Source of the DNA: an uncultured Synergistales bacterium
Lineage (GTDB): Bacteria; Synergistota; Synergistia; Synergistales; Aminobacteriaceae
DNA: 64,000 nucleotides
Reading direction: 5' to 3'
NCBI GenBank assembly: GCA_905234075.1
Contig: CAJOGI010000004.1
Coordinates: 124,001 to 188,000 of the forward strand
The notes under the pieces were generated by a model. The model saw only the letters and a program-made list of their open reading frames with translations, was not told the DNA's origin and did no database searches. Below are positions 38,917 to 64,000 of the stretch, in pieces; the first letter of the stretch is position 1, and each line of letters opens with the position of its first letter. Both the position numbers and the translations under genes were made by a program.

Positions 38917-40800
38917 TTACGAACGTGAATTAATTTTGCTAATAACTTCTTTTTTCAACGAAACAGCGTCAATTTTATTATTCGGGAGCGTCGGGAGTTT
39001 ATCATATAAGAAAAATCTGCTTGGAATTTTGAACTTAGCAAGCCTTGTCATAAGAAAATCTCGCATAGCATTTTCATCGAAAACATAGCCGTTTTTCATT
39101 ACGACAGCAGCAGCTACGATTTCGCCGTAAACCTCGTCAGGCACGCCCATAACTTTTACTTCAGCAATGCTCTCATGTGCTGAGATTGCAGAAGCTACCT
39201 CATCAGGCATAATATTTTCTCCGCCCCGTATTATTAATTCTTTAGCACGGCCTGCGAAATGAAGATAGCCGTCTTTGTCCAAAAATCCTAAATCTCCCGT
39301 ATGTAAAAATCCCTCATTATCAAAAGGCTGTTTTTCAACCGGCAATTTGTAATAGCCGCACATCATATTAACGCCCTTCAAAATAACTTCGCCGGTAACA
39401 CCTTCAGGACATTTTTTACCTGTCTTTATATCCTCTATCATGATTTCAGCACCTTCAACTGTTTTTCCTACGGTGTTTAGTATATGTTCCATGCTGTCGT
39501 TATAATTCGTGGCAGTTGCCGGTGTCATTTCGCTTAGACCGTAACGCCTCATAAAGTGGTTATTAGGAAATTTTTCCATGAGCATAGCAAGCTGTGAAGA
39601 CGATACAGGCGCACCGCTCAAATACGAAGCACGTAGAGATGAAACAAGTTCAGAAGAAAAACCTTGAGCATTAACAAGCCTCAATAATACAGTCGGAACA
39701 GAATGAAGAATAGTACAGCGTTCATTATCTATGACGCTCAAAAGTTCATCAGGCTTGACATTTTGAGGCAGAATTATTGAAGCTCCGCTTATTGCGCTTG
39801 CCAAAAGAGCCGCAGTAAGTCCGAAAATATGGAAGAAAGGCAGAATAGCACACATTTTATCGCTGTCGTTCATTTGAAGATTATCAACGCAGTGATTTGC
39901 AGAATTAAGCAAATTGTAAGCCGATAGCAAAACTACTTTAGGAGTTCCTGTAGAGCCTGACGTAAAAATCATAAGACAGACATCGTCCGGCATAACATGA
40001 CCTTCATAATCGTATTTTTGATTTCTGTTCATGAAGTCTGCGCTGTCTCTTATATTGAGAGTCGTTTTTATACATGATTTATCGGGGTCTGTAATTTTTG
40101 CGGTAAAATCTTCTTTTTTGCTGTCTTCTGAATTCATATTGCCGTAGCAGAAGTGAGTTATATCTCCGATTTTTGAACAATTTGTAATTTCATTAACTGT
40201 AAGCTGAGGATTAAGCATTACAGCTATAGCACCTAACTTTTGGACAGCGTAGAAAGTTAATATCCAATTTAGAGAATTTAGACCGCAGATGGCAACGTGA
40301 GTTTTATTTCTCACTCCTAAGGCGTAAAGTTCAGAAGCCACAGCTGAAGAACCTTTGTCAATATCCTGCCAAGTATACGAGACACCGTGAGATTTTAATG
40401 CAATTTTGCTGCCGCTTTCATTAACTTTGTGCTTCAGAAAATCCCGCAGAGACATATTCAAAATATCATCGTTTTGATTTTCATTTTCAACAAAAGGCGT
40501 GTAATTAAAGAACCCTAAAAAGCCTGTTGCCTCTAAAATCTCGATAACTTCTGGCCTTACGTTCTCTAAAAGCAAACCGTCTTTTCCAAACTTTTTAACA
40601 GCAAGCAAAAATTCGCGCAATCCGTTTGATGAAACATAAGATAATTTTCTCATATCCCAGACGAGAGGAAGATTAATTTTTTCCGGCTCGATGTCTTTCA
40701 AAACTTCATGCAGCATCGGAGCAGTTGTTGCGTCTATTTTTCCGCTAAGTATCAGCTTATTCGCGCTTGGCCGTTCAATATTTAATTTAGAATTCTTCAT
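38917..40800 (-). CDS. STAS domain fused to an acyl-CoA ligase (AMP-binding)
   Basis: 627 aa from ATG 40800 (AGGAG 9 bp upstream). Residues about 1-105 form a STAS domain: NKLILSGKIDATTAPMLHEVL and WDMRKLSYVSSNGLREFL, where the Ser before NGLR aligns with the phospho-acceptor Ser of SpoIIAA-type proteins. The rest is a complete AMP-forming ligase: IFTSGSTGTPKVV, RYGLSEMTPATATNY, HTGDLGFLDKDGYLHFAGRAKELIIRGGENI and the C-terminal catalytic Lys in LPNNKIDAVSLKK. It could make the acyl-CoA or acyl-AMP for the starter condensation domain of the NRPS 1.3 kb upstream on the same strand. The STAS part suggests control by the phosphatase/ATPase pair of that operon; this is inference. Confidence 0.88.
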   Translation of the reverse strand: MKNSKLNIERPSANKLILSGKIDATTAPMLHEVLKDIEPEKINLPLVWDMRKLSYVSSNGLREFLLAVKKFGKDGLLLENVRPEVIEILEATGFLGFFNYTPFVENENQNDDILNMSLRDFLKHKVNESGSKIALKSHGVSYTWQDIDKGSSAVASELYALGVRNKTHVAICGLNSLNWILTFYAVQKLGAIAVMLNPQLTVNEITNCSKIGDITHFCYGNMNSEDSKKEDFTAKITDPDKSCIKTTLNIRDSADFMNRNQKYDYEGHVMPDDVCLMIFTSGSTGTPKVVLLSAYNLLNSANHCVDNLQMNDSDKMCAILPFFHIFGLTAALLASAISGASIILPQNVKPDELLSVIDNERCTILHSVPTVLLRLVNAQGFSSELVSSLRASYLSGAPVSSSQLAMLMEKFPNNHFMRRYGLSEMTPATATNYNDSMEHILNTVGKTVEGAEIMIEDIKTGKKCPEGVTGEVILKGVNMMCGYYKLPVEKQPFDNEGFLHTGDLGFLDKDGYLHFAGRAKELIIRGGENIMPDEVASAISAHESIAEVKVMGVPDEVYGEIVAAAVVMKNGYVFDENAMRDFLMTRLAKFKIPSRFFLYDKLPTLPNNKIDAVSLKKEVISKINSRS

Positions 40801-41442: not shown

Positions 41443-41863
41443 ATGATAATTGACCATATTGGTATAGCTGTTAAAAATATTTCTGAAGCTCTTATTTTTT
41501 GGGAACAAACTTTTAGGAATTAAGTGCGCTGGCATTGAAGAACTCGAAGAGCAAAAAGTTAAAACAGCTTTTTTGCCTTTGGGAAATTTAACTGACGATA
41601 GTATGCCATAGGAAATTGAACTTTTGGAAGCAACGAATGATAACAGCACCATAGCAAAATTTATAGAGAAAAATAAAGATAGAGGCGGTATTCATCATAT
41701 TGCTGTACGTGTTGATGATATTGAAGCAGCTATTGAGGATTTGAAGTCAAAAGGCGTCAGGCTTATTGATGAAAAACCGCGCAGAGGTATCAAAAATTCA
41801 TTGATTGCCTTTGTTCACCCGTCAGCAACAGGCGGCATTTTATTGGAACTTTGTCAGCATTAA
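41443..41863 (+). pseudogene. Methylmalonyl-CoA epimerase, disrupted
   Basis: ATG 41443 starts MIIDHIGIAVKNISEALIFW, the VOC-fold epimerase opening. A frameshift near 41515 and an in-frame TAG near 41609 (TDDSMP[14 protein letters not shown]) break it; the rest ([32 protein letters not shown]) is intact. The enzyme would interconvert (R)- and (S)-methylmalonyl-CoA. Two lesions indicate real decay. Confidence 0.82.
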
Positions 41864-49376: not shown

Positions 49377-51173
49377 TTATAATTCAATAATTGTCTGATT
49401 CAGCGACAGGACGCGGCTGTAGTGAATGTCCTTCGCCATTGCTTTCAATAACATAATTCCGTCAGTGCGATAATCGGCCGTTTCGTTAGGGGTGTACTCA
49501 ATCGGGTTGAAGGGCTGACCGTTGTCGCGCAGAGCAAGAATGACGCGCCCGTTGCGGGAAGCCTCGCCCCCTGCACTTTCAATTACGCTGATCCTAACGT
49601 CAATATCCGCAGCGCGTTTGTTTTTAGCATAGCTTGCCAGGTTCGCCGTCATTTCCTCCAGAGCAATTCCAGCCATTGCCGCTTTCTCCGTCTCAAGGCC
49701 GTTACTTTTTAGAACGCCCTCCGCCTCTTGGGACAGCCTCACCGCGTCCTCGTTCGTAGCCTTGAGCGACACGTCGTAAAGCAGTTCCTTGCCGCTCTTC
49801 TCGATTAAATAAAAGTCCGTAAGTTTTCCGCCGGAGTTCTTGCAGGCAACGCGGACATAGACGAGCAGACAAAGGAAGCCGATAAACTCCGCAAGTATGA
49901 ACGCCACCCACACGCCCGTCAGCCCCATTAAACGCGATAAAACCCACGCGGCAGGTACGACAGCGAAAAAGCCCTCGACAAACGAGAGGATATTTGCGGC
50001 CGTCCGCTGCTGTACCGTCGTGTAGTAGTACAGCATAAGGAACGTAACAGCGACACCAAGAAGACTAATAGAGAACAAGCGGAGTGCCTTTGCTCCCTCA
50101 GCCGTAAGTTCCGGCGGCAGATTGAAGAGAGACAGCACCGACTGAGGGGATAACAGAACGAACAAAACGAACAGCCCTACCAACGAGAGCGTGAAGCGCA
50201 TGACGTGCCGCGTCAGCATACGGATACCCTGATAATCCTTCTCGCCGTATAACACGCCCACGATTGGTATCATCGATCGATGCCCGCCGGAGATAAACAT
50301 CGAGACAAAGCTGAGACAGGATACGCACACAGCGTAGATCGTCATGGCTCCGGCTCCTCCTGTAGCACTTAGAATGGCGTATATGCACCATATTTTGACA
50401 GAGACAAGGCCAACCCCGGCCGCTGCCGGAACTCCTGTCCGTATCAGTCTGAAAGTCAATGACAGGAACGCCTTTATCCCATTGCCCAAAATATTGACAA
50501 GGCGGAATGTTCGCTCGGACGAGACGAAATAGCGTGCAAGCAAATAGCCGGCACCAACGACATCGCTCACAACCGTAGCCAGAGCCGCGCCCTCCAGTCC
50601 CATCTTCATAGGGCCAATCAGGAAAATGTCAAGCCCTATATTCACAACTTGTCCAAGCAGCACGGCGTGGCTCACAACCCCTGCCATACCGTCGGAACGG
50701 ATCAGGACGCTTAGTCCGCCCAAGACGATCATGAAGGGAAATCGCCAAATCAGGATATGGAGGTATGCCCAGCCGCCCTCCACAAGTGCGTCAGAAGAAG
50801 CAAGGAAGCGCGACAGTTCGCGTGTAAAGGGGAGACACAAGAGCGTCATTAAGGCTCCTACTCCGAAGCACAGAACCGTAACGGCGGTGAAAATGCGGTT
50901 TGCCTCATCGTGCTGTCGTGCTCCGGCAGCAATGGCGGCAAGCCCCCCCGAACCGACGGAAATAAGCATCATTATTGCCGCCACAAGCTGATTCAGCGGC
51001 ATACAGACCCCCACGCTGGCCATCGCTCTCGCGTCAATAAAATTTCCCACGATTATGCTGTCGATGATGACACCAAGCTGCCCGGCGATCGTGGAAAGAA
51101 CGGTGGGCAGGAAAAATTCACGAAACTTTTTGTTGACAAGCTTTCCAGATTTTACATAGCCTGTCTCAAACAT
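49377..51173 (-). CDS. MATE-family exporter fused to RsbW-like ATPase domain
   Basis: 598 aa. Residues about 1-455 form a MATE transporter with 12 helices (FFLPTVLSTIAGQLGVIIDSIIVGNFI start; GMGLEGAALATVVSD-type repeat at MKMGLEGAALATVVSDVVG). Residues about 465-598 form a GHKL/HATPase_c domain of anti-sigma kinase type: GIALEEMTANLASYAKN (N box, Glu and Asn), LALRDNGQPFNPIEY (DxGxPF, G1 box) and NQTIIEL at the end. RsbW/SpoIIAB-type domains phosphorylate STAS proteins. Fused to an exporter, it could couple transport to the STAS switch. It lies 16 bp before the NRPS start and 14 bp after the phosphatase gene. Confidence 0.9.
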   Translation of the reverse strand: MFETGYVKSGKLVNKKFREFFLPTVLSTIAGQLGVIIDSIIVGNFIDARAMASVGVCMPLNQLVAAIMMLISVGSGGLAAIAAGARQHDEANRIFTAVTVLCFGVGALMTLLCLPFTRELSRFLASSDALVEGGWAYLHILIWRFPFMIVLGGLSVLIRSDGMAGVVSHAVLLGQVVNIGLDIFLIGPMKMGLEGAALATVVSDVVGAGYLLARYFVSSERTFRLVNILGNGIKAFLSLTFRLIRTGVPAAAGVGLVSVKIWCIYAILSATGGAGAMTIYAVCVSCLSFVSMFISGGHRSMIPIVGVLYGEKDYQGIRMLTRHVMRFTLSLVGLFVLFVLLSPQSVLSLFNLPPELTAEGAKALRLFSISLLGVAVTFLMLYYYTTVQQRTAANILSFVEGFFAVVPAAWVLSRLMGLTGVWVAFILAEFIGFLCLLVYVRVACKNSGGKLTDFYLIEKSGKELLYDVSLKATNEDAVRLSQEAEGVLKSNGLETEKAAMAGIALEEMTANLASYAKNKRAADIDVRISVIESAGGEASRNGRVILALRDNGQPFNPIEYTPNETADYRTDGIMLLKAMAKDIHYSRVLSLNQTIIEL

Positions 51174-51186
51174 GAATATCGCCTCT

Positions 51187-52827
51187 CTATAAATATCGTA
51201 TATACATCATTGTCAGGTCATCAGACTGAGGAGCCGTCCGCACGAAAGCCGCGACCTGATTTTTCACATAATCTATAAGCTCCTGTGCGCTCAAATTTTT
51301 CGCGTTCACAACGTGAGCATTCAGCGCGTCCAGCAGTCTAACTTCCCCGAAGAACTCGTGCTCGCAGTTCTCCGCCTCCGTAACTCCGTCAGTGTAGAAT
51401 AAAATCCCGTCGCCCTGTAAAAGCGAAAGAGAATCTTCCTTAAATTTAGCTTTATCGTCGATGCCTAAAAAGCCGTTTTGCGCTATTGGCAGGTATTCAA
51501 AAACACCGCCTCTGGAAATCAGCGGCGGGTTGTGCCCAGCGTTGACGTAGGTGAATTTTCCTGTTCTTACGTTCAGGACTCCGGCGAAAACCGTCACAAA
51601 CATTAGGCTGTCGTTGCCTCGACAGAGTTGGAAGTTAGCATAGCTAACTGCTTCGGCCAGTGCTCCCGGCTCGTCCGGTGCAATATAGATAAAGTTTGCC
51701 AGCAGGATTTGAGCCTTGCTCATGGTAAGTGCCGCCGGAACGCCTTTGCCGGATACGTCCGCGATTATGAAAGCTACACGGTTTTCATCGATGGTGTAGA
51801 AGTTGTAGAAGTCTCCGCCGACTTCTTTAGCTGCGTCCATTATTGCAGCTATGTCAATCTCTGATCGAATGGCAAAATTTGTGGGAAGCATGGAGAGCTG
51901 AATATTCCGCGCCACGTTAAGTTCTGACTGAACCTGCTCCTGCTTTCTTGTAACCTGCGTTAGATTAATAATGTAATCGACAGTCTGCTCTTCCATCGTA
52001 TCGATAGCACGTGCAAGCTGACCGATTTCGTTTGACATTCTGATGGACTCGCCAAGTTTTGATTCTGAAAGGCTGTTCTTCACTGCAAAGCGCGATATTT
52101 CCTTCGTAACGGCCTTGATAGGGTTTAAGAGCCATCGACGAAGTCCCCACAGCACAAGATAAAGGATAACCGCCAGCAACAGCATTGCCCACCCCAAAAC
52201 TTTATACGCATGTCTGTATATGACGGTGCGCAGCTTTTCCATTTTTCTCTGGACGCAGATAAGCCCTGCCACTCGATCCTCTTTTGTCTTGACGGGGATA
52301 ACAACAGTAATATGATCTTCCTCCCACTGCTGAGGCTGCACAACCATAGCATATTTTGCGCCTTGATATATCTCGGCATAAGCCTTTCGTTGAGCATCGC
52401 CGGATTTAGCCACAGTACCGCCGGGATACAGCACCATCTCAGGATAATCTTCAAGTAGGGAAGGGTGTACCACTGTCAGACCAAAACGAATACGGCCGTA
52501 GTCCTCCCCTTCCGTCTGAATGAGGTAGATCATCAAAACTCCCTGAGAGTCCCGGTTTGCCAGACGCTGCCACTCACTCTGAATTTGACGTCGCTCCTCC
52601 GGGTGATTTCCCCCGTCCGCCGTTAGGTAGTCAGCTATATGATCGGGATTGAGGTATGTTCGCGCAGTCCTTGCAGTATGATAGGCCGCCTCAACGTACT
52701 GATCAATAACGGCCTTAGTTATCTCCCGGCTGCCGATATAAACGATGACATAACACAAAAAGACGAGCACGAGTGCCACACTGGTAAGAACCTGGACACT
52801 CAGGCTCGTTTTGAGGGCTTTAATCAT
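51187..52827 (-). CDS. Membrane SpoIIE/RsbU-type Ser phosphatase with sensor domain
   Basis: 546 aa. Helix at about 10-32, periplasmic sensor region to about 205, second helix at about 210-232 (VLGWAMLLLAVILYLVLWGLRRW), HAMP-like region to 290 and a coiled coil, then a PP2C-type phosphatase: DAAKEVGGDFYNFY (metal Asp), FIIADVSGKGVPAALTMS, YVNAGHNPPLIS, LFYTDGVTEAEN and APQSDDLTMMYIRYL. It should dephosphorylate STAS-Ser-P on sensing an outside signal. ATG overlaps the STAS stop (ATGA). Confidence 0.93.
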   Translation of the reverse strand: MIKALKTSLSVQVLTSVALVLVFLCYVIVYIGSREITKAVIDQYVEAAYHTARTARTYLNPDHIADYLTADGGNHPEERRQIQSEWQRLANRDSQGVLMIYLIQTEGEDYGRIRFGLTVVHPSLLEDYPEMVLYPGGTVAKSGDAQRKAYAEIYQGAKYAMVVQPQQWEEDHITVVIPVKTKEDRVAGLICVQRKMEKLRTVIYRHAYKVLGWAMLLLAVILYLVLWGLRRWLLNPIKAVTKEISRFAVKNSLSESKLGESIRMSNEIGQLARAIDTMEEQTVDYIINLTQVTRKQEQVQSELNVARNIQLSMLPTNFAIRSEIDIAAIMDAAKEVGGDFYNFYTIDENRVAFIIADVSGKGVPAALTMSKAQILLANFIYIAPDEPGALAEAVSYANFQLCRGNDSLMFVTVFAGVLNVRTGKFTYVNAGHNPPLISRGGVFEYLPIAQNGFLGIDDKAKFKEDSLSLLQGDGILFYTDGVTEAENCEHEFFGEVRLLDALNAHVVNAKNLSAQELIDYVKNQVAAFVRTAPQSDDLTMMYIRYL

Positions 52828-53126
52828 CCTTCAATCGGAATATGATCGCTGAAGTGGGATATAGCAAAGACGTTCTTGATAACCTCGTTAGCGTGAATGA
52901 TTTTGATAGGGCCGTCGCCAAAGCTGCGTTTCGCTTTCAGTAGGGAACGGAGCCCCGCAGAAGAAATGTACTCCAAGCCGGCAAAGTCAAGCGTTACTTC
53001 CTTGACTCCAAGTACAGATGCTGCAAACTCCTTGTCGAACTCTTGGGACGTTATCGTGTCCAAGCGTCCGTTAAGTGTCAGTATGAGGGACGTTCCCTCG
53101 ACACTCTTAGTGATTTCTAAAGACAT
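52824..53126 (-). CDS. STAS-domain anti-sigma-factor antagonist-type protein
   Basis: 100 aa, a single SpoIIAA/RsbV-like domain. VEGTSLILTLNGRLDTITSQEF and VTLDFAGLEYISSAGLRSLL; the Ser before AGLR is the expected phospho-acceptor. First gene of the NRPS operon, overlapping the phosphatase by 4 bp. It should be the substrate of both the phosphatase and the MATE-fused ATPase domain. Leader: AAGGAGCGTTTTTTATG. Confidence 0.94.
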   Translation of the reverse strand: MSLEITKSVEGTSLILTLNGRLDTITSQEFDKEFAASVLGVKEVTLDFAGLEYISSAGLRSLLKAKRSFGDGPIKIIHANEVIKNVFAISHFSDHIPIEG

Positions 53127-61590: not shown

Positions 61591-62934
61591 ATGGCAAAGA
61601 CTGCACTCGAAGCACGCTATGATTACATGACAAAGACCCCCGTAAATAAATTAATCACTGTTCTTGCGATCCCTACGATTATCAGCATGATGGTTACGAA
61701 TTTATATAACATGGCAGATACTTTTTTTGTAGGCCGGCTTTCTACACAGGCTACGGCGGCGGTCGGTGTTGTCTTGCCGTTGATGAATATAATTCAGGCT
61801 GTCGGATTTTTTTGCGGACACGGCTCCGGCAATTACGTCTCGCGTAAACTCGGCGCAGGGGAAATCAAAGAAGCTCAGGAGATGGCCTCGACGGGGTTTG
61901 CTCTTGCGTTTCTGCTGGGCGGTGTAATTCTTTCGTTCGGCCTTATAAAATTAACGCAGTTTTCAATTTCGCTAGGAGCTACTGATGAAATTATAAAAGA
62001 CACGCAGGACTATATGAGAATAATTTTAATAGGCACTCCGTTTATGACCTCGCAGATTGTAATTAATAATCAGCTCCGTTTTCAGGGCAGTGCTTTTTAT
62101 GCGATGATAGGGCTTGTAAGCGGCGCAATATTAAATATTTTTCTTGACCCCTTATTTATTTTTACGTTCGGTCTCGGGGTGGGCGGCGCGGCTCTTGCTA
62201 CTATATTGAGCCAGCTTGTGAGCTTTTTTATTTTGTTTTACGGCTCAACTAAAGGCGCAAATATCCGAATACATTTCAAAAATATAAGATTAAATGCTCA
62301 TTATTTATTGCAGATAATTAACGGCGGATCCCCTTCGCTTGCCCGCAACGCTTTAATAAGTATCTCAAGCATTTTATTAAACAGGACAGCCGGAGAAATT
62401 GCAGGCCACGCGGCTATTGCAGGAATGTCGGTCGTAAACCGCGTAATGATGTTCGCAAATTCCGCGTTAATAGGCTTCGGTCAGGGTTATCAGCCCGTGT
62501 GCAGTTATAACTACGGCGCAAAACTTTACGGCCGCGTCAAAGAAGGCTATAAATTCTGCGCAGCTTACGGAACTTTATTTTTAATATGCCTCGCAATAAT
62601 CAGCGAATTTTTTTCGGCAGAGATTATAAAATTTTTCAGAGACGATATTGAAGTTATTTTAGTTGGAAGCGTCGCGCTGCGCTGGCAGATGTTCACGATG
62701 CCTCTAAACGCCACGATAGTTATTTCAAACATGATGCTTCAGTCAATCGGGAAAGGAATACGCGCAACAATAACGGCTTCAGCGCGGTCAGGAATATTTT
62801 TCATTCCGTCGATCTTAATCCTTTCAAAATTTTACGGTCTTTTCGGTGTCGAGATTGCCCAGCCCGTCGCGGACGTGTTCGCTTTTACTCTTGTTATTCC
62901 TTTGACTTTTTCAGTGTGGCGGGAAATGAATTAG
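61591..62934 (+). CDS. MATE-family efflux transporter
   Basis: 447 aa, 12 helices. MTKTPVNKLITVLAIPTIISMMVTNLYNMADTFFVGRL is the N-terminus (about 14-51); QAVGFFCGHGSGNYVSRKLG and DPLFIFTFGLGVGGAALATILSQ are typical MATE repeats. It should expel drugs or metabolites with Na+ or H+. Unlike the MATE at 49377 it has no ATPase extension. The stop codon sits in an AGGAGTTAGGA repeat. Confidence 0.9.
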   Translation: MAKTALEARYDYMTKTPVNKLITVLAIPTIISMMVTNLYNMADTFFVGRLSTQATAAVGVVLPLMNIIQAVGFFCGHGSGNYVSRKLGAGEIKEAQEMASTGFALAFLLGGVILSFGLIKLTQFSISLGATDEIIKDTQDYMRIILIGTPFMTSQIVINNQLRFQGSAFYAMIGLVSGAILNIFLDPLFIFTFGLGVGGAALATILSQLVSFFILFYGSTKGANIRIHFKNIRLNAHYLLQIINGGSPSLARNALISISSILLNRTAGEIAGHAAIAGMSVVNRVMMFANSALIGFGQGYQPVCSYNYGAKLYGRVKEGYKFCAAYGTLFLICLAIISEFFSAEIIKFFRDDIEVILVGSVALRWQMFTMPLNATIVISNMMLQSIGKGIRATITASARSGIFFIPSILILSKFYGLFGVEIAQPVADVFAFTLVIPLTFSVWREMN

Positions 62935-62952: not shown

Positions 62953-64000
62953 TTAAATCTTAAAACTTCCTGTGATTTTTGTGCCTTGTCCGGGTGCTGA
63001 TTTAATTTTCAAATTTCCGCCCATTAAAGACATTCGCTCGGTCATGCTTGCAAGTCCGCGATGGCCTTCGATTCTTAAAGCCTCGTGATTAATTTTTTCG
63101 GACTCGAAGCCGTTTCCGTTGTCAATAATTTCAAGCGTTATGTTATTTTCGCTGTCCTTGCTTAATTGAATGTGAACTTCGCTGGCTTCTCCGTGCCGCA
63201 CGGCATTTGAGACAGCTTCTTGAACAATTCTCAAGAGCGATAAAGATTTTTCGTTTTCAATGTCAATTTCTCTAGCTTCGTCATCAAAATCAAAATCCGC
63301 GCTTACTTGAATATCATAAACCTGCGAGAGTCTTTCGGCTAATTCCGTTAGAGCTTCAACAAGGCCGAGATCCATCCACGGCGGAGCAAGTTCATCGCAT
63401 AACGCTCTCAACTCCCGGACGACGCTTTTAGCTATTGTCTCAGTTAATTTAATCCGTGCAACGTCGCTGTGATTTTCGTCGTCTATTGCCATGTGAAGCT
63501 GTTGAACGAGAGCCGTTATATCCTGTAATGGTCCGTCATGAATTTCTCTTGCCATGTCGACTCTTTCGCGCTCCTGCGCCTGAACGACATCACGGACATA
63601 GCGGTTTCTTAAATTATCGCGTTCGACCGCTGCTTGGGCAAAACGCTTTAACGCATTATGAACGCTGTCAATCTCTTTTATTGCGTCTTTATTAGGATTT
63701 TCCGGGACATCTTCGCCGAGCGTCATGTTGTCAATTTCAGCGACCAGAGATTTTAACGGAATAACTAACCTGCTCCATAATAATTTTATTCCGACAAAAC
63801 TGCTCAACGCAATAATGACAAGTAATATCGGCCATATTCTGACGACTCCGACAAGCCCTCCCAGTAACTGCGCCCACGATACTGCCGCGACGACGTAGCC
63901 TCCGCCAGCGCGTTTAACCGGATAAATTGCAAGAGTGTACTGTGCGCCCTCTCTGTCCTCAACTTTTACGGCCTTGCCTACAGGAAGATCGCTCCGCCAT
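62953..64000 (-). CDS. Sensor histidine kinase, HisKA_3 (NarX/DesK-like) type, N-terminus outside window
   Basis: The frame is open to the window edge, so the gene starts beyond 64000. From the edge: part of an extracytoplasmic sensor (YTLAIYPVKRAGGGYVVAAVS), one helix (VRIWPILLVIIALSSFVG), a HAMP-like linker, then ERVDMAREIHDGPLQDITALV with the phospho-acceptor His and Asp of HisKA_3, and an ATPase domain with RIVQEAVSNAVRHGEAS (N box), IIDNGNGFE (G1) and GHRGLASMTERMSLMGG (G2). The paired response regulator is not visible. It converges on the MATE gene with an 18-bp gap. Confidence 0.9.
   Translation of the reverse strand, partial: WRSDLPVGKAVKVEDREGAQYTLAIYPVKRAGGGYVVAAVSWAQLLGGLVGVVRIWPILLVIIALSSFVGIKLLWSRLVIPLKSLVAEIDNMTLGEDVPENPNKDAIKEIDSVHNALKRFAQAAVERDNLRNRYVRDVVQAQERERVDMAREIHDGPLQDITALVQQLHMAIDDENHSDVARIKLTETIAKSVVRELRALCDELAPPWMDLGLVEALTELAERLSQVYDIQVSADFDFDDEAREIDIENEKSLSLLRIVQEAVSNAVRHGEASEVHIQLSKDSENNITLEIIDNGNGFESEKINHEALRIEGHRGLASMTERMSLMGGNLKIKSAPGQGTKITGSFKI

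Follow-up and report, generated by a model that had tools for sequence, protein, structure and literature searches.

Gene organization of the locus

The window (the whole 64,000-nucleotide stretch analyzed here, from an uncultured Synergistales bacterium of the rumen) contains a gene coding for a MATE-type membrane protein with a C-terminal HATPase domain. This gene and its neighbors, in window coordinates, are the following:

38917..40800 (-): fusion of an N-terminal STAS domain (motif YVSSNGLR) to an acyl-CoA-ligase-type AMP ligase, 627 aa
42110..49363 (-): NRPS, C-A-T-C-A-T-thioester reductase, AusA-like; starts some 13-16 bp downstream of the MATE gene
49377..51173 (-): MATE-HATPase gene, 598 aa; putative MATE exporter (residues ~1-446) and RsbW-class HATPase (residues ~464-598)
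49380..49811 (-): HATPase_c_2 domain of the same protein (residues 455-598), with E507/N511, G1 D550/G552, reduced G2 D571-G572 and the N592 strand
51187..52827 (-): membrane SpoIIE/PP2C phosphatase with HAMP and, at its N-terminus, a TM-extracytoplasmic-TM region; 13 bp upstream of the MATE gene
52824..53126 (-): STAS-only protein of 100 aa, RsbV/SpoIIAA-like, with the motif YISSAGLR; its gene overlaps the start of the phosphatase gene

The order STAS, HAMP-SpoIIE phosphatase, MATE-HATPase and C-A-T-C-A-T-R NRPS is that of one predicted operon. It co-encodes a kinase-type HATPase, a STAS protein with a phospho-acceptor serine and a PP2C phosphatase, and has no free HATPase. The phosphatase matches SpoIIE (1.2e-42) and contains the PP2C Asp motifs; its HAMP match scores 20.5 bits, below the cutoff of 25, and its best NCBIfam match, SiaA (5.8e-15), is also below cutoff. 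The motif of the STAS-only protein is an RsbV-type phospho-acceptor motif, and the acceptor serine is kept in all STAS domains compared, enzyme-fused ones included. The NRPS scores 1272.7 bits against the AusA profile NF047350, below the equivalog cutoff of 2500. Since the STAS-acyl ligase gene lies 1.3 kb past the NRPS, it probably belongs to a separate transcript; it is a probable further partner of the switch. Between these two genes, a remnant of a methylmalonyl-CoA epimerase/glyoxalase-like gene with broken frames was read by eye at positions 41443-41863 (+).

The MATE-HATPase gene is a single reading frame

The gene at positions 49377-51173 (-) is a single unbroken frame that extends from an ATG at 51173, with GAGG 5 nt upstream, to a TAA at 49377. 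The MATE and HATPase parts are joined by a short linker (residues 447-463). The first-pass annotation had described one MATE protein with a C-terminal HATPase domain, and had pointed out that a start codon and ribosome-binding site between the domains would make the fusion a gene-calling artefact. Between residues 423 and 468, no in-frame ATG, GTG or TTG codon occurs. Of two GTG codons, that at residue 468 lacks a Shine-Dalgarno match and that at residue 478 has one whose spacing is unusable. A start at the ATG of residue 500, which is preceded by GGAG, would drop the first ~30 residues of the HATPase domain. An artefact was therefore rejected: no internal start has a usable ribosome-binding site, and the fusion is conserved across phyla. 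End-to-end fusions are kept both in Synergistaceae relatives (71-76% identity) and in Bacillota relatives from Selenomonadaceae, Oscillospiraceae and Clostridia (48-51% identity); within the genus, identities of the fused relatives range over 71-98%. Together with the Pfam matches given below and the unbroken frame, these relatives bear out the description of a single, genuine fusion protein.

Comparison with a 76%-identical relative gave dN/dS values of 0.13 for the MATE part and 0.12 for the HATPase part, which indicates purifying selection of equal strength on both. A 98%-identical homologue from a goat rumen relative (G007, L009 11670-11737) diverges past residue ~577 and stops early, by a frameshift or an assembly error, so that its last ~20 residues, N592 among them, are gone. 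A search of a plasmid collection returned no match.

Predicted fold and conserved motifs

The open reading frame matches PF01554 MatE (1.6e-25, 90.1 bits versus a cutoff of 24.9). A structure prediction of the fusion, which had been proposed as a check, was made with AlphaFold2 and 80 homologues; the model of the whole protein has high confidence (pLDDT 93, pTM 0.92). Model residues 11-461 adopt the 12-helix MATE fold and superimpose on PfMATE (6gwh) with a Z score of 43.5 and an rmsd of 2.2, and the membrane part matches ClbM (4z3n) with a Z score of 36. By profile and model, the protein is a putative inner-membrane exporter of the MATE family (MOP superfamily).

The tail matches PF13581 HATPase_c_2 at residues 471-587 (3.2e-8, 34.1 bits versus a cutoff of 27.4). 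Modeled alone (pLDDT 88), it has UsfX, RsbW, SpoIIAB, the RsbW domain of Rv1364c and SiaB as its top matches, all with Z scores of 12.4-13.7, while histidine kinases score no higher than about 7.5. A profile of the tail found RsbW (6m36, E=2.4e-6) and SpoIIAB (about 1e-3) in the PDB, where a single-sequence phmmer search with the tail found nothing.

As had been claimed from the sequence, the tail has the N box Glu and Asn (E507, N511), the G1 Asp and Gly (D550, G552) and the C-terminal N592 strand. RsbW also has D-x-G-x-x-F replacing the second G1 glycine, as can be seen from the alignment. A correction applies to G2, the lid motif, which is not canonical: TDGIM replaces the GGLGL of RsbW, so that there is no GxG and the second glycine alone remains. 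Among the 80 non-redundant fusions, E507 (77/79), D550 (72/80), Y585 and N592 (79/79) are nearly invariant. The other two positions vary: N511 is kept in only 52/79 and absent in 27/79, and G552 is kept in only 48/80, with Cys there in 27. The proposal that the tail binds ATP nevertheless gains support from profile, fold and conserved residues; the tail is of the RsbW class and likely to bind ATP here, and its kinase activity is plausible. Since G2 is altered and N511 is lost in a third of the relatives, catalysis is not certain across the family, and some members may be docking proteins only.

Distribution, phylogeny and gene neighborhoods

Loci with a MATE-HATPase were collected from about 990 genomes, and their neighborhoods were then mapped. 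The resulting list of MATE proteins with this extension and of adjoining genes, as the first-pass annotation had advised, holds 80 non-redundant full-length fusions from Synergistota and Bacillota. All fall into one clade, and the two MATEs within it that look unfused are truncated at contig ends. The tree thus points to a single origin of the fusion. An unfused MATE (L198) from another Synergistales family, which adjoins free HATPase, STAS and SpoIIE genes, is sister to the clade, and its cluster looks like the pre-fusion state; in other sampled families of the order, only unfused MATEs were found. In this rumen genus of Synergistaceae, MATE-HATPase paralogues have expanded to up to about five per genome (L045-L080).

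Switch genes are found in a same-strand operon with 21 of the 80 fusions and an NRPS with 15; the remaining 59 have no switch gene in the visible operon, in some cases owing to contig ends. SpoIIE lies within 5 kb of 18/80 fusions versus about 2% expected from the SpoIIE density of our own genome, which is a rough background. The enrichment rests mainly on this density, since the control set of 25 single MATEs is small and its two positives both come from L198, the locus of the sister MATE. The combination of NRPS and switch genes recurs in Selenomonadaceae (L012, L111) and Clostridia (L177, and L164 without SpoIIE in view). At L012, the order is MATE-HATPase, a short ORF (by our reading similar to an Sfp-type PPTase), NRPS, SpoIIE and STAS. 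Further neighbors of the specialized-metabolite kind include condensation-domain proteins, ATP-grasp ligases, APH kinases and GNAT. Three findings thus support the earlier suggestion that the tail works with the STAS switch: the operon, the linkage that recurs in two phyla and the unfused sister cluster.

We looked for a rule that would pair degenerate tails with a separate kinase gene, but it does not hold cleanly: L164 and L134 obey it, whereas at L137, L138 and L145 an intact tail occurs together with a HATPase that is separate or fused to SpoIIE. At L082/L011 (G019 and G066, contig C103), a STAS-SpoIIE pair is flanked by two divergent, oppositely oriented MATE copies, each cut by a contig end.

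HATPase tails on other transporters

The same genome has a second switch operon outside the window, at 60.1-66.3 kb of contig C4 (L149 10148-16300; also L083 4644-5786). It codes for two STAS proteins, an EamA-HATPase fusion, a dCache-HAMP-SpoIIE protein, a canonical RsbW and a STAS-APH fusion, and is followed by amino-acid ABC transporter genes, including one for an ABC ATPase with a HATPase tail. The motifs of the EamA- and ABC-attached HATPases are eroded, while those of the free RsbW are intact. Relatives of the EamA-HATPase occur in 29/43 genomes of the genus, many of which have it split into two genes. The eroded tails favor docking over catalysis as the function that such tails would share.

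Comparison with known systems

A HATPase_c_2 kinase-type domain, a phospho-serine STAS protein and a PP2C phosphatase also make up the RsbW/RsbV/RsbU and SpoIIAB/SpoIIAA/SpoIIE switches of Bacillus. The locus differs from these in that the kinase would be an exporter tail with a reduced G2, the phosphatase is a HAMP membrane receptor and there is no sigma factor; the regulated partner, a sigma factor in the RsbW/SpoIIAB scheme, is here proposed to be the covalently attached transporter. The nearest switch of the non-sigma type is SiaABCD of Pseudomonas aeruginosa, a partner switch without sigma factor output, with SiaB as a free kinase and, through SiaC, a diguanylate cyclase as the output (PMC7647112, PMC8457831). 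SiaA is the best, if below-cutoff, NCBIfam match of our phosphatase and SiaB is among the fold matches of the tail, but in place of a free kinase and a diguanylate cyclase there is a fused transporter here. SulP/SLC26 transporters (review PMC8256260) likewise bear half of a STAS/HATPase pair on the cytoplasmic C-terminus, there as a STAS tail and here as the kinase half.

ClbM, the MATE for the colibactin precursor, resembles our protein in fold and in its genomic pairing with an NRPS, but is not known to have a HATPase tail or partner-switch genes. In domain order and in AusA profile similarity, the NRPS resembles AusA and the gut C-A-T-C-A-T-R clusters, which make N-acyl dipeptide aldehydes (discussed in PMC8518294); nothing on a MATE-HATPase or a switch was seen in the papers searched. 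Each component of the system is known. In the open-licence literature, to which the search was confined and where absence is weak evidence, we found no description of the exporter-HATPase architecture or of a switch whose covalently attached partner is an exporter.

A proposed partner switch with an exporter as its output

The recurrent linkage of exporter, switch and enzyme suggests that the switch controls export here. We consider it probable that the tail is a genuine component of a partner switch. Given the operon, the single origin of the fusion, the unfused sister cluster and the lack of a nearby sigma factor, we favor a switch whose output is the attached transporter and not a sigma factor, a reading to which we give even chances; that gating of export is the main output is an equally balanced call. 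In the working that we infer, from ATP binding through phosphorylation, docking and gating, including its sign, to the exported product, the tail would be the kinase or docking component of the switch on the cytoplasmic side of the exporter. It would phosphorylate the STAS protein at the serine of YISSAGL and thereby free itself of STAS. The HAMP-PP2C phosphatase would sense a signal outside the cytoplasm and dephosphorylate STAS, which would then dock on the tail and alter export by the attached MATE. The cargo would most likely be what the adjacent NRPS makes, an N-acyl dipeptide aldehyde or a product of the pyrazinone type.

Several observations weigh against this working. The G2 motif is without its first glycine and 27/79 relatives are without the N-box Asn; RsbW and SpoIIAB act as dimers, whereas MATE proteins are usually seen as monomers; 59/80 fusions have no switch gene in the visible operon; and the eroded EamA and ABC tails beside a free RsbW fit docking better than catalysis. 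Partner switching is known mainly for the control of sigma factors, with a few other outputs. If the reading is true, transport itself would be the output of a switch, in an exporter clade of at least two phyla that is tied to NRPS clusters, and this would suggest a means by which bacteria of the gut and rumen control when reactive peptide products are released. The tail and the 100-aa STAS protein make a two-protein system that is directly testable.

The exporter could instead be the sensor, with the cargo or conformation of the MATE setting the activity of the tail kinase and phospho-STAS signaling to the acyl ligase or to a regulator elsewhere. The short linker and the confident domain placement would allow such coupling, the STAS-acyl ligase provides a second STAS target in the same cluster, and there is a precedent in transporter-coupled kinases of other classes (SLC5-type CbrA/CrbS). 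We find this unlikely, since the phosphatase already carries a membrane sensor region, the operon holds no transcription regulator or sigma factor that could act downstream, and the eroded HATPases of other exporters speak against a general kinase output.

The tail could also be a reversible scaffold, on which STAS-tagged enzymes (the acyl ligase, an APH-type kinase) would dock at the exporter until released by phosphorylation. Such enzymes, which keep the phospho-acceptor serine, are indeed found next to the fusion: a STAS-acyl ligase 51% identical to the product of 38917-40800 directly adjoins a MATE-HATPase at L060, and a STAS-APH gene lies directly upstream of one in two phyla (L045, Synergistota; L135, Bacillota). 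An AMP ligase that itself has a weak HATPase match at its C-terminus directly adjoins a MATE-HATPase at L079 (6486-8504). These loci are few, however; the MATE frame of L045 is broken, the STAS-acyl ligase is present in 3/43 genomes of the genus (two besides our own), and in most of the fusions with linked switch genes the only STAS is a free one, unable to recruit an enzyme. We accordingly regard a scaffold as quite unlikely. More generally, STAS and HATPase could form a phospho-controlled plug and socket, with sockets on transporters (MATE, EamA, ABC ATPase) and plugs that are free or attached to enzymes (acyl ligase, APH-type kinase), and reversible docking at the membrane would then couple the making of a metabolite to its export with no transcription step; we offer this tentatively, as an unlikely generalization. 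Further AMP ligases whose C-terminus matches HATPase weakly were seen at L207-L211.

A decaying or nucleotide-sensing remnant, which may bind ATP/ADP and tune transport to the energy state with no STAS partner, would explain the reduced G2, the loss of N511 and G552 in many relatives and the many fusions without switch genes in view; it is improbable, since the tail is under purifying selection equal to that of the MATE part, four of its residues are near-invariant and the STAS/PP2C set in the operon is complete.

A membrane-anchored anti-sigma factor of the ordinary kind, sequestering a sigma factor encoded elsewhere, would suit a tail with the fold of anti-sigma kinases but is very improbable, since the genome (scored 100% complete) has only three sigma factors, on contigs C2, C3 and C11 (447 aa, RpoD-sized; 249 aa, flagellar type and adjoining cheC/cheD-like genes; 186 aa), none of these three is co-encoded with the tail or lies near the MATE-HATPase or any switch locus, and it is with exporters and biosynthetic enzymes, rather than with sigma factors, that the family is associated. 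Elsewhere in the window, an ordinary single MATE gene (61591-62934, +) converges with a gene for a DesK/NarX-type histidine kinase (62953-63807, -), a pair that is probably unrelated to the switch.
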